A stretch of 64,000 nt of DNA, from the NCBI GenBank assembly GCA_001800905.1, contig MGWH01000002.1:744001-808000 (forward strand), read 5' to 3'. How positions within the stretch are numbered: position 1 is the first letter of the stretch; each line of letters begins with the position of its first letter. Made by a program: the position numbers and the translations under genes. The notes beneath the pieces were generated by a model, which was not told the DNA's origin, ran no database searches, and worked only from the letters and a program-made list of their open reading frames with translations. The stretch comes from Flavobacteria bacterium GWA2_35_26. Its GTDB lineage: Bacteria > Bacteroidota > Bacteroidia > Flavobacteriales > Flavobacteriaceae. Of this stretch, positions 10,983 to 59,055 are shown in pieces.

Positions 10983-13310
10983 CTAAAACCAAAATCCAAC
11001 GCTAAACCATGTATATCCTTTGGTGCTTTCTGGCGACCAAGAATATTTGACTTCAATTGGGCCAATTCTTGTTTCTAAACCATACCCGAAAGCATAACCC
11101 GAATATTTAGGTAGTGAGATCCATTCTTTAGTCTTGAAAAGATTTTGTTCAAGATTAGCAAAATTGGCGGAAAAGTTCAAATGATTTTTCTTTAAAAAAA
11201 CATAATCAATAGTTCCAGAAGCTTTGATGTAACTATTGGCCGCTACACTCACAAAATCATACCCAAAAAACGGTTTAAAATTATTGATGCTATTGTAACC
11301 ATAACCTCCCAAAACAAAATTAAAAAACGGAATACCGTCATTTCCAATAGGCAGGCCTGCATCTCCCTGAAATTTGAAAGTAAATGAATTTGATACTGAA
11401 AATGCTTTAGAAAATTGCGCTTGTAGTACAGAAAACGGTTTGAAATCATTATGAAAGTCGGATGCAAATAAATACGATTGAAAATCAGAAGTGAAAGACC
11501 ACCCTTTTTTAGGAAAGTATTTATTATCAAACGAATCGTATTTTACATAGCCAAAACCACTCCAATAACTGCTCTTATCAATGATCGGATTTGAGATTGT
11601 TTTAGACGAAATGTGCAAATACTTTAATTCCACTCCCGCACCAAATAAAAAACGTTGTGCAATCCCTTTTTGTAAGTATGCCCTAGTAGAAAGATCTAAA
11701 TAATCTACATTGATTTGATTTCCGCCTGTGTCCAAAATAGATTTGGTAATTTCTTGTGTGATGTTTCTATTGAATTGACTCAATTGCGATTTAAACCCAT
11801 AACTAAAGTTAAATCCATTGTCCACATAGTAATCTAAATTGTACCTAAAATTATCTCCTAAAATAATATCTAGCGAAGCCAGGTCATTTTTAAATAAGGT
11901 GTTTTTGTGGGTAATATTAACTAAAATGCCACTTTTAAATAGTTCGTCATAATGCAGTCCTAATTTTAAATAGGTGTAAATAGGATTTTCTGCTAACTGA
12001 AGTTCTAAATCTTCCCCTTGCTCATTGTTTTTGAATGAATAACTTATTGAATGGAAGTTTTCTGTAGCTAGTAGGGTATTTATTCCTGATTCTAAATGAC
12101 TATAAGTTATTGGAGTCTTTGGCTTAAACCCTAATTTACCAAACACATAATCGTTGGTATATTTACGCAACTTAGTAGTGTTAATTTGGGCCAATTTCAC
12201 GCTGTCTTTATATACAGACAATCTTGGTTTTTTGAAATAATTTTGATCGGTAGATAGGGTTTTGATTTTTTCATACACTGCAAAAGCAGCTTCCTCGCCT
12301 CTTTGAATAATTTCTCTTCCTCGATCAAATGAAAGTACCCCAAAATTTTTAATGTCGGGTGTGATATAAATATCAGTTCCTTTAATTTTATTTTTCATCT
12401 GTTCAATGGAATGCAAATTGGTGATTTGCACCAAAATTTTTGTGGCGTTTTTTAACTGGTTTTTGTCCCATAATCCATCTTGAACGTCAACTCCAATAAT
12501 CAAATCAGCCCCTAAATTTTTCACTTCATCAACGGGAAAATTATTAGCAACTCCGCCGTCAATAAGCAATTGCCCATCAATTTCAATTGGGGTAAATAAA
12601 GTGGGAAATGCAGCACTTGCCAACATGGCCTGCGCCAAATTTCCTTTGTTTAGCAAGACCTGCTGACCCGTCTCAATATTAGTTCCTATACATAAAAACG
12701 GAGTGGGCAATTGGTTGAAATCATTCACCTGGCGCACATGTCGTGTCAATCGGCTCAACAAATTAAAATTATACAAGCCTTTAGAAAGTGCTTGAGGAAT
12801 TCCTACTTTGAAATTGCTAAAAGGAAGTGATAGTGCATAGGATTCGTCATTTCGTTTTTCATAAAAACTCTTCGCGGATCGCGGAATATAATCGTTTAGT
12901 AATTCGTCAAAATTGATTTTATGAAAAATAGAATCTATTTGTGTGGCATTGTAACCCGAGGCATACAAACCGCCAATAACTGCTCCCATGCTCGTTCCGC
13001 CGATATAATCAATTTTAATTCCAGCTTCTTCAATCACTTTTAAAACACCAATATGAGCAAATCCTTTGGCGCCTCCACCACTCAACACCAATCCTATTTT
13101 GGGACGTTTTTGTTCTTGAGCAAAGCTATTCTGAAAACTGAAAAGGAATAGTATAACAAGAAGCAAGCCCCAGATGGAAGTGAAAAGCGCCGCTGGTGAA
13201 AATGCTATTTTTTCTAGAGGAAAAAGAGCAACAGCAGGAGCTCCTTTTTTCTCTTTAGAAAAAAAGAATTGTGACAGCGGACTTGGAACGGAAAGCTGGG
13301 ATAGGCTCAT
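10983..13310 (-). CDS. Patatin-like phospholipase with POTRA-like and C-terminal Omp85/BamA-type barrel
   Basis: GLVLSGGGAKGFAHIGVL, GTSMG, DGGVANNFP catalytic motifs; beta-barrel C-terminus ending WFSVGFWF. The annotated N-terminus is doubtful (see findings). Confidence 0.9.
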   Translation of the reverse strand: MSLSQLSVPSPLSQFFFSKEKKGAPAVALFPLEKIAFSPAALFTSIWGLLLVILFLFSFQNSFAQEQKRPKIGLVLSGGGAKGFAHIGVLKVIEEAGIKIDYIGGTSMGAVIGGLYASGYNATQIDSIFHKINFDELLNDYIPRSAKSFYEKRNDESYALSLPFSNFKVGIPQALSKGLYNFNLLSRLTRHVRQVNDFNQLPTPFLCIGTNIETGQQVLLNKGNLAQAMLASAAFPTLFTPIEIDGQLLIDGGVANNFPVDEVKNLGADLIIGVDVQDGLWDKNQLKNATKILVQITNLHSIEQMKNKIKGTDIYITPDIKNFGVLSFDRGREIIQRGEEAAFAVYEKIKTLSTDQNYFKKPRLSVYKDSVKLAQINTTKLRKYTNDYVFGKLGFKPKTPITYSHLESGINTLLATENFHSISYSFKNNEQGEDLELQLAENPIYTYLKLGLHYDELFKSGILVNITHKNTLFKNDLASLDIILGDNFRYNLDYYVDNGFNFSYGFKSQLSQFNRNITQEITKSILDTGGNQINVDYLDLSTRAYLQKGIAQRFLFGAGVELKYLHISSKTISNPIIDKSSYWSGFGYVKYDSFDNKYFPKKGWSFTSDFQSYLFASDFHNDFKPFSVLQAQFSKAFSVSNSFTFKFQGDAGLPIGNDGIPFFNFVLGGYGYNSINNFKPFFGYDFVSVAANSYIKASGTIDYVFLKKNHLNFSANFANLEQNLFKTKEWISLPKYSGYAFGYGLETRIGPIEVKYSWSPESTKGYTWFSVGFWF
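13160..13308 (-). repeat. Possible degenerate copy 3 of the hairpin element, inside the predicted patatin 5' coding region
   Basis: Minus strand GAGCCTATCCCAGCTTTCCGTTCC...ATTCTTTTTTTCTAAAGAGAAAAAAGGAGC...CACTTCCATCTGGGGCTTG; left and right ends resemble copies 1 and 2. Confidence 0.45.
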
Positions 13311-48805: not shown

Positions 48806-51124
48806 ATGGCGATTATCAATAGAAAAAAAAATCAGGTACCAGATTCTGAAAAAGACATTCAATATTATTCCAAGTTATTCTGGAAATATTTCTTTTATGG
48901 CATGGGAGGCATCGCCTTATTTTTCCTATTTGCTTCTTGGGGGCTTTTAGGCTCAATGCCGTCGTTTGAAGACTTAGAAAATCCAGATTCTAATTTAGCC
49001 ACCGAAATTATCTCTGCTGACGGAGTCGTAATTGGAAAATATTTTGAAAAAAACCGTTCCCAATTAAAGTATTCCGACTTGCCTAAAAATTTAGTTCAAG
49101 CCTTAGTAGCAACCGAAGATGCTCGTTTTTACGATCACTCCGGAATTGACGGAAGAGGAACGTTAAGAGCTATATTGAGTTTTGGAACTTCGGGAGGAGC
49201 AAGTACGCTAACCCAACAATTAGCCAAACAATTATTTCATGGAGAAGGTTCCAAGTTTTTACCGTTTCGTATTATCCAAAAAGCAAAAGAATGGATTATT
49301 GCCATTCGCTTAGAAAGACAATACACCAAAAACGAAATCATTGCCATGTACTGCAACGTATATGATTTTGGAAACAACTCCGTAGGGGTGAACTCGGCAG
49401 CCAAAACTTATTTCTCAAAAGAACCGAAAGACCTAACAATTACAGAATCTGCTGTTTTGGTGGGTATGTTTAAAAACTCCGGTTTGTACAACCCGGTAAA
49501 AAATATCGAAGGGGTAACCAATAGACGTAACGTAGTATTGAAGCAAATGGAAAAAGCGGAAATTATTACCGAAGCTCAAAAACTACAATTACAACGTTTA
49601 CCAATCAAATTAAACTTCAAATTAGAAAGTCACAAAGACGGAACTGCTACCTATTTCAGAGAATATTTGAGAGAATACATGAAAAAATGGGTAGAAGAAA
49701 ATAAAAAACCAGACGGTTCAGATTATAACATTTACAAAGACGGATTGCGTATTTATACTACCATTGATTCGCGCATGCAATTGTATGCAGAAGAGGCAGT
49801 AGAAGCGCATATGGCTAATCTACAAGAAGAATTCTTCGACCAAGCCAAAGAGAATAAAAACGCACCATTTGTAAATATTTCGCAAGCCGAAACGGATCGT
49901 ATCCTGAAAAAAGCCATGAAAGCTTCTGCACGATGGAACATCATGGAATCCAATGACAAAAGTGAAGATGAAATCATCGCTTCGTTCAAACAAAAAACCA
50001 AGATGAAAGTCTTCACTTGGAAAGGAGAAAGAGACACGATTATGACGCCTTTAGATTCTATTCGTTATTACAAACACTTCTTGCAATCAGGTTTAATGGC
50101 CATGGAACCACAAACCGGAAACATCAAAGCGTGGGTGGGTGGTATCAATTACAAATACTTTCAATACGATCACGTTGGTCAAGGAGCGAGACAAGTAGGT
50201 TCTACCTTCAAACCCTTTGTATACGCAACTGCGATAGAACAATTAGGCATGTCGCCATGTGATTCTATTTTGGATGGTCCGTTTATGATTCGCAAAGGAG
50301 AACACAACGTTACCGAAGATTGGGAACCTAGAAACTCAGATAATAAATATAGGGGAATGGTCACTTTAAAAAGAGCATTGGCCAATTCCATCAATACGGT
50401 TTCGGCCAAATTAATTGACAAAACAGGTCCTGAAGCTGTGGTTGAATTAACACATAAATTAGGGGTAACCTCTGAAATTCCAGCGCAACCTTCTATTGCA
50501 CTTGGTGCAGTAGAAATTACCGTACAAGATATGGTGGCTGCTTATAGTACTTTTGCCAACCAAGGAGTCTATGTAAAACCTCAATTTTTAAGAAAAATTG
50601 AAGACAAAAGCGGGGTCGTCCTTTACGAACCTGTTCCTGAGTCTCACGATGTCTTGAACAAAGACATTGCATTTGCCGTGATCAAATTATTAGAAGGGGT
50701 TACCGAAGGCGGATCTGGAGAACGTTTGCGCACCGAAGGTGGTGGAAACGGAGACAACCGTTGGACTGGCTATCCGTATATGTTTAAAAATCCAATTGCC
50801 GGTAAAACCGGAACCACTCAAAATCAATCCGATGGGTGGTTTATGGGAATGGTTCCTAATTTAGTTACCGGAGTTTGGGTAGGTTGCGAAGACCGTTCCG
50901 CGCGTTTCAGAAGTCTTACTTACGGTCAAGGAGCAACAGCAGCCTTACCTGTTTGGGGGTATTTCATGAAAAAATGTTACGAAGACGAAACGCTCAATGT
51001 GTCCAAAGAAGATTTTGACAGACCCGCTAATCTTGGCATTAAAGTAGATTGTTATTCTAGACCTGCTGCGGTAGTTAAAGACTCTACTGATACGGAACAA
51101 AGCACCGAAGAGTTCGAATTATAG
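48806..51124 (+). CDS. Class A penicillin-binding protein (PBP1A)
   Basis: GT51 ATEDARFYDHSGIDGRGTLRAI plus transpeptidase GSTFKPF, KTGTTQNQSDGWFMG; start set at MAIINRKKN. Confidence 0.95.
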   Translation: MAIINRKKNQVPDSEKDIQYYSKLFWKYFFYGMGGIALFFLFASWGLLGSMPSFEDLENPDSNLATEIISADGVVIGKYFEKNRSQLKYSDLPKNLVQALVATEDARFYDHSGIDGRGTLRAILSFGTSGGASTLTQQLAKQLFHGEGSKFLPFRIIQKAKEWIIAIRLERQYTKNEIIAMYCNVYDFGNNSVGVNSAAKTYFSKEPKDLTITESAVLVGMFKNSGLYNPVKNIEGVTNRRNVVLKQMEKAEIITEAQKLQLQRLPIKLNFKLESHKDGTATYFREYLREYMKKWVEENKKPDGSDYNIYKDGLRIYTTIDSRMQLYAEEAVEAHMANLQEEFFDQAKENKNAPFVNISQAETDRILKKAMKASARWNIMESNDKSEDEIIASFKQKTKMKVFTWKGERDTIMTPLDSIRYYKHFLQSGLMAMEPQTGNIKAWVGGINYKYFQYDHVGQGARQVGSTFKPFVYATAIEQLGMSPCDSILDGPFMIRKGEHNVTEDWEPRNSDNKYRGMVTLKRALANSINTVSAKLIDKTGPEAVVELTHKLGVTSEIPAQPSIALGAVEITVQDMVAAYSTFANQGVYVKPQFLRKIEDKSGVVLYEPVPESHDVLNKDIAFAVIKLLEGVTEGGSGERLRTEGGGNGDNRWTGYPYMFKNPIAGKTGTTQNQSDGWFMGMVPNLVTGVWVGCEDRSARFRSLTYGQGATAALPVWGYFMKKCYEDETLNVSKEDFDRPANLGIKVDCYSRPAAVVKDSTDTEQSTEEFEL

Positions 51125-51130
51125 TTCTTG

Positions 51131-51214
51131 TTACAGGAGCTATTTCCCGCCATTCACTGTATCTTTATGGCTAAAACCTAGCCATAAAGGATGCTGTTAC
51201 TGCCGGGGCTAAGG
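51131..51214 (+). repeat. Copy 1 of a stop-codon-adjacent hairpin element
   Basis: GAGCTATTTCCCGCC-ATTCACTGTATCTTT-[ATGGCTA aaacc TAGCCAT]-AAAGGATGCTGTTACTGCCGGGGCTAAGG; homologous to the reverse complement of 58981-59055. Confidence 0.8.
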
Positions 51215-51283
51215 GTTGTGTTTTCAATTGGAAAATTGCAACTTAAATACTGTTTTTAAATTCATGAATTAATACTAATACAC

Positions 51284-58944: not shown

Positions 58945-58980
58945 TAAAAAACCACTCGAGTCGTCGAATGGTTTGTTTTT
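58945..58980 (-). terminator. Intrinsic terminator downstream of hemB
   Basis: Minus strand AACCATTCGAcgacTCGAGTGGTTTTTTATTTT (one mismatch). Confidence 0.7.
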
Positions 58981-59055
58981 TAGCCCTGATAGTAGCGGCA
59001 TCCTTTGCTGCCGATTTTCGGCAGGAAAGATAGAGCGGATAGCAGGATAAGCTTC
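58981..59055 (-). repeat. Copy 2 of the stop-codon-adjacent hairpin element
   Basis: Minus strand AAGCTTATCCTGCT-ATCCGCTCTATCTTT-C[CTGCCGA aaa TCGGCAG]C-AAAGGATGCCGCTACTATCAGGGCTA. Confidence 0.8.

Follow-up and report, generated by a model that had tools for sequence, protein, structure and literature searches.

Flavo-1 (RF01705) was described from Bacteroidetes, according to the motif description of Weinberg et al. (2010; PMC2864571), and bears the Rfam type label "Gene; sRNA". A survey counted it among the commonest sRNA families (PMC9029176). For the F. psychrophilum transcriptome it has been reported that Flavo-1 matches lie indistinctly sense or antisense to transcribed regions, and that many of them lie in none (PMC9723704).

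Several classes of small bacterial repeats can be compared with this family. ERIC/IRU (127-bp enterobacterial repeats) and other bacterial MITEs (PMC2229807) are likewise imperfect palindromes of small size and stable fold, scattered between genes and non-autonomous, and some of them overlap reading frames, as some Flavo-1 copies do. This is a likeness by description; unlike these elements, Flavo-1 has no visible terminal inverted repeat or TA target, and its stem varies in a strongly compensatory way. The REPs of the GTAG and CGTC super-families (PMC3733652) are also palindromic, intergenic and multi-copy, and those of the CGTC super-family share with Flavo-1 the lack of an adjoining transposase. 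However, REPs are 20-40 bp long and carry a terminal tetranucleotide tag (PMC3733652), whereas Flavo-1 has a length of 76-147 nt and internal loops. The ends of Flavo-1 read TAGCCC and AGCTCC.

Flavo-1 copies in the window

The window, that is, the whole analysed stretch of 64,000 nucleotides, contains two short copies of Flavo-1 and one longer relative (Table 1). Copies 1 and 2 match RF01705 at full length (positions 1-76), with the same sequence, length and pairing over all 76 positions as in the published family (Weinberg 2010, PMC2864571). Both lie above the curated cut-off for membership, 42 bits across the model, with E-values within the window of 1e-11 (copy 1) and 5e-14 (copy 2). The window hairpin is one member of a known, dispersed family.

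The preliminary description had noticed a hairpin at 51131-51214 that aligns with a second copy at 58981-59055, and the sequences are as it gave them, including the stems which differ and yet pair (ATGGCTA/TAGCCAT in copy 1, CTGCCGA/TCGGCAG in copy 2). It did not recognise the Rfam family, and it needs correction in orientation, as the folded strand begins near TAGCCC and finishes near AGCTCC and copy 1 is thus antisense to PBP1A. The longer relative is an addition to it. The central stem of copy 1 is a perfect hairpin with a predicted fold of -26.6 kcal/mol, and 12 bases separate the PBP1A stop from the right end of this copy.

Table 1. Flavo-1 elements in the window and their parts (window positions).
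Feature	Position	Strand	Basis or setting
Flavo-1 long form, 147 nt	13163..13309	+	Model R2, 137.6 bits; Flavo-1 ends, inner helices, conserved loops
Flavo-1 copy 1, short form	51139..51214	-	RF01705, 64.0 bits; model R1, 79.8 bits at 51129-51221; PBP1A stop (51122-51124) on one side, scoA-like start (51284) on the other; antisense to both
Copy 1 right end, folded strand TAGCTCC	51137..51143	-	Sequence and right flank profile
Copy 1 variable central stem	51163..51189	-	11-bp arms 51163-51173 and 51179-51189, five-base loop
Copy 1 left end, folded strand TAGCCCC	51205..51211	-	Last C covaries with n of AGCnGGA
Hairpin and T-run abutting copy 2 left end	58949..58980	.	Junction common to orthologous loci
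Flavo-1 copy 2, short form	58978..59053	+	RF01705, 72.6 bits; flanked by hemB stop (59056) and ogt; antisense to both
Copy 2 variable central stem, CTGCCGA TTT TCGGCAG	59008..59024	+	Sequence

Covariation and the folded strand

How far is the structure itself conserved among the copies? In 41 copies aligned without structure, standard pairs filled 96.5% of the pair cells, against 71.6% after shuffling. Cells changed on both sides numbered 242 versus 72 in the shuffles, and such double changes occurred in 18 of the 22 pairs. When the partner was slid by one column, standard pairs fell to about 49%; this control flatters the fold, the structure being derived from the same copies, while the double changes are independent of that. 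The base following TAGCCC pairs with the n of AGCnGGA, all four Watson-Crick pairs being found at this position. Some of this genome's diverged copies, read by eye, have GGG:CCC in place of the terminal CCC:GGG.

The mismatches distinguish the two strands. Among 189 central stems (2012 pairs) there were 42 G.T mismatches versus a single A.C (p 1e-11), and the long forms had 41 versus 7; kinship among copies makes such p-values optimistic, and a covariance model which tolerates G.U over A.C may have biased the collection. A single mismatch would not exclude most copies, whose scores of 70-90 bits are far higher than any threshold. For the outer helix, the copies that had not been selected by pattern gave 9 versus 4, which is not significant alone. 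Seventeen C.A mismatches counted among copy-1 orthologues were taken to reflect the bulged C in ATCC, and this count was left out of the evidence. The strand that folds is that of the Rfam model, and for copy 1 this is the minus strand at 51139-51214. Palindrome-correcting copying errors could partly produce perfect pairing, but the G.U excess is not explained by them. The earlier suggestion that selection acts on structure is therefore confirmed by the covariation, which is significant in the central stem too, and by the asymmetry of G.T and A.C.

Copy number and distribution

The genome under study (2.1 Mb, 6 contigs) has 26 Flavo-1 matches, 22 of them above the Rfam cut-off, and the family is thus not confined to the pair of the window. 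Other genomes of the genus have from 0 to 138 matches each, and some species (G018, G020) lack Flavo-1 entirely. Matches to the sequence pattern derive from Flavobacterium, Chryseobacterium and Epilithonimonas records. Recurrence in Flavobacterium, offered in the preliminary description as an impression, proved correct. One exact pattern was searched for in viral contigs and gave no match. The genes enclosed by pairs of copies were judged by eye to encode ordinary, unrelated proteins.

Copies of Chryseobacterium type (L085, L077, L150, L146, L092, L168, L158) share the inner sequence GGTTACCCC..CAGC ... GGCGCGAGGAGTATGAGTGG and are perhaps a third form of Flavo-1.

Insertion and retention in place

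Synteny with genome G106 extends over ~300 kb at ~85% identity, and most copies are common to both genomes. The G106 copy at C52:226342 has AATTAAAAC on each side, forming a 9-bp direct repeat, while at the aligned site of this genome AATTAAAAC stands once and the element is missing. Had this genome precisely lost the part between the repeats, the picture would be identical to that of an insertion in G106; the repeats bound the element either way. This is the single case of a clean insertion with a target repeat. No terminal repeat was seen when one was looked for in the inserted segment. A second empty site was found in G064, orthologous to L018, and one copy of this genome, L001, carries a 12-bp direct repeat. 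The distance between target repeat and TAGCCC is variable, and over 230 copies there was no general excess of direct repeats compared with shuffled controls. The preliminary description had left the choice between an RNA element and a mobile REP/MITE-like unit. Mobility is supported by the filled and empty site with its 9-bp repeat, by the second empty site, and by copy numbers from 0 to 138; a strict RAYT-linked REP is not.

Many other copies, with copy 1 among them, are old and occupy the same place in many species. Most of the relatives examined have copy 1 at the same site, oriented alike and with stems that are different but paired; a few relatives have an intrinsic terminator there instead. 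Copy 2 was found in several relatives. In G106 its place is held by a perfect palindrome, which is present elsewhere in that genome, including the inside of Flavo-1 stems.

Another palindromic repeat, AAGGCTTCCAGCC...GGCTGGAAGCCTT, is found both alone and nested in the tips of Flavo-1 stems: L357 (G106 C52:226376), L363 (343767), and G106 C52:485997 and 553824. In some mutually unrelated copies a motif of ~20 bases, roughly TTCTTTTGAAAACnnnTGCCC, lies 5' of TAGCCC; copy 1 has its own version. The element may extend further left.

Possible nature of the element

We consider that Flavo-1 is probably a dispersed, non-autonomous mobile palindromic element of ERIC/MITE-like kind, mobilised as a folded single strand by an enzyme acting in trans. 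A copy would insert in intergenic DNA in either orientation, sometimes at least duplicating a short target. The target of recognition would be the fold of one particular strand. In that fold purine-rich internal loops break the outer helix, whose tip is a short variable stem in the short form (~76 nt) and a larger conserved-loop domain in the long form (~147 nt). The enzyme, supplied in trans, may act on the folded strand in the form of either RNA or single-stranded DNA. We infer both the enzyme and the single-stranded intermediate, the route through a folded single strand being suggested by the strand asymmetry. The nesting of other palindromes in the stem tips of G106 copies also speaks for mobility. 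Against it stand the single clean insertion with a target repeat, the lack of a general excess of direct repeats, the variable distance from target repeat to TAGCCC, and the failure to find a partner enzyme among the sampled Y1 loci or, as Y1 or reverse transcriptase, in this genome. Moreover, many copies at orthologous sites keep their pairing over long divergence, and simple decay after insertion predicts otherwise.

If the Rfam label is taken literally, then Flavo-1 is an independently transcribed small RNA. We regard this as unlikely, although an RNA gene would account for the maintenance in place at orthologous loci and for the restriction of the strong covariation and the conserved loops to a single strand. 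Up to 138 matches per genome with unrelated stems do not suit such a gene, and no conserved promoter was seen upstream, apart from the left motif of some copies. RNA-seq of F. psychrophilum did not reveal consistent transcription (PMC9723704). Thus Rfam names an sRNA, but a mobile repeat is what orientation, copy number and an empty site indicate, and the evidence here favours the latter. If Flavo-1 is a mobile repeat, many annotated Flavobacteriales "sRNAs" are not RNA genes.

Orientation bears on the remaining explanations. With respect to flanking genes, as placed by a simple gene caller, 37 copies were sense and 47 antisense; the neighbouring genes were divergent for 36 copies and convergent for 15. 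Replication-strand bias was absent in three complete genomes (68 copies on the leading strand by GC skew versus 82 on the other, p 0.29, with origin and terminus located roughly from 20 samples per genome). The element is therefore not tied to the direction of transcription or replication, and this unbiased orientation makes part of an mRNA or a terminator unlikely. Such a hairpin at the mRNA 3' end, terminating or stabilising the transcript of the upstream gene, has in our opinion little chance of being the explanation: G.U is kept on the Rfam strand though half of the copies run antisense to their gene, and copies between divergent genes outnumber those between convergent ones. Its support comes from the place of copy 1, where some species have an intrinsic terminator, and from the right end, which frequently has a stop codon 3-15 bases away. 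But when copies 1 and 2 were checked as intrinsic terminators, neither had a 3' U-run in its sequence, and the orientation relative to genes did not suit a terminator either. Terminators at the left end were barely above expectation (11/221 copies versus 2.6% background, p 0.05). On the same count, insertion beside terminators, to which a few copies had pointed, was rejected as a general rule.

A DNA hairpin that binds protein or organises the chromosome, and is kept for the benefit of the host, seems to us equally improbable. It would agree with retention at orthologous sites and with independence of transcription and replication direction, but not with its absence from G018 and G020 and its very uneven numbers. 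Finally, a REP moved by a RAYT (Y1) transposase, which the palindromic, intergenic and multi-copy character might suggest, is largely refuted and very improbable: there was no Y1 match in this genome, G004, G011, G012, G016 or G064, all six of which carry copies, no Flavo-1 copy adjoined the sampled Y1 loci (23 with the short-form model, 30 with the long-form model), and the weak Y1 gene of G106 adjoins a different palindrome.

At G106 C52:550328-550561 and 550834 this weak, RAYT-like gene lies beside the perfect palindrome CCTACAAGGTTTT...AAAACCTTGTAGG, likely a REP of its own. The search for an autonomous partner of the mobile repeat covered Y1 and reverse transcriptase. Reverse transcriptase (RVT_1) has one or more matches in G106, G126 and G004 but none in this genome or G013. 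It was rejected as partner, being absent from these two copy-bearing genomes.

The long form

The long form was spotted by model matches of unusual length (144-149 nt), which have the same ends and outer helix as the short form. Its inner domain comprises extra helices, the internal loop TTTCTTG/TTAGAAA and the apical AGCGACCnnnGGAAGCT; the copy in the window deviates slightly from this family consensus. Alignment without structure of 33 copies, several of them orthologues of each other, gave double changes in 26/30 pairs, 230 cells changed on both sides versus 70 in shuffles, and a covariation score of 0.607 versus 0.187. A long-form model built on nine copies matches 24 of 38 genomes, with up to 70 matches per genome, short-form cross-hits included; it has no match in genomes without Flavo-1. 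The RF01705 model does not contain the inner domain, and cmscan against all Rfam reported the long-form stretches as Flavo-1 with an insert or missed them.

The left junction of copy 2 is shared by short forms at L248, L251 and L254 and by a long form at L261. At the copy-2 locus of G044, a long form sits on the same left junction where others carry the short form. Short and long forms belong to one family, because both share this junction. We infer that the short form arose from the long one by reduction. It is possible, and we propose it tentatively, that a new kind of mobile element has the long form as its fully functional unit. A mobilising enzyme of Flavobacteriales would then bind the structured strand, with its near-fixed length and its conserved inner and apical loops TTTCTTG/TTAGAAA and AGCGACCnnnGGAAGCT, and the catalogued Flavo-1 "RNAs" would be its reduced derivatives. 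The family was already known, while the long form and the evidence of mobility are apparently new. With its near-fixed length, conserved loops and one active strand, the long form is a concrete, testable object for the enzyme search.

The long form of the window overlaps a patatin-like ORF on the minus strand (10983-13310). It falls inside the start predicted for this ORF, whose frame is open through the whole element. Either the true start of this ORF is downstream or its N-terminus is supplied by the element. An open frame through the long form was also seen at the related loci L444, L448 and L468, and, for another gene, at L174.
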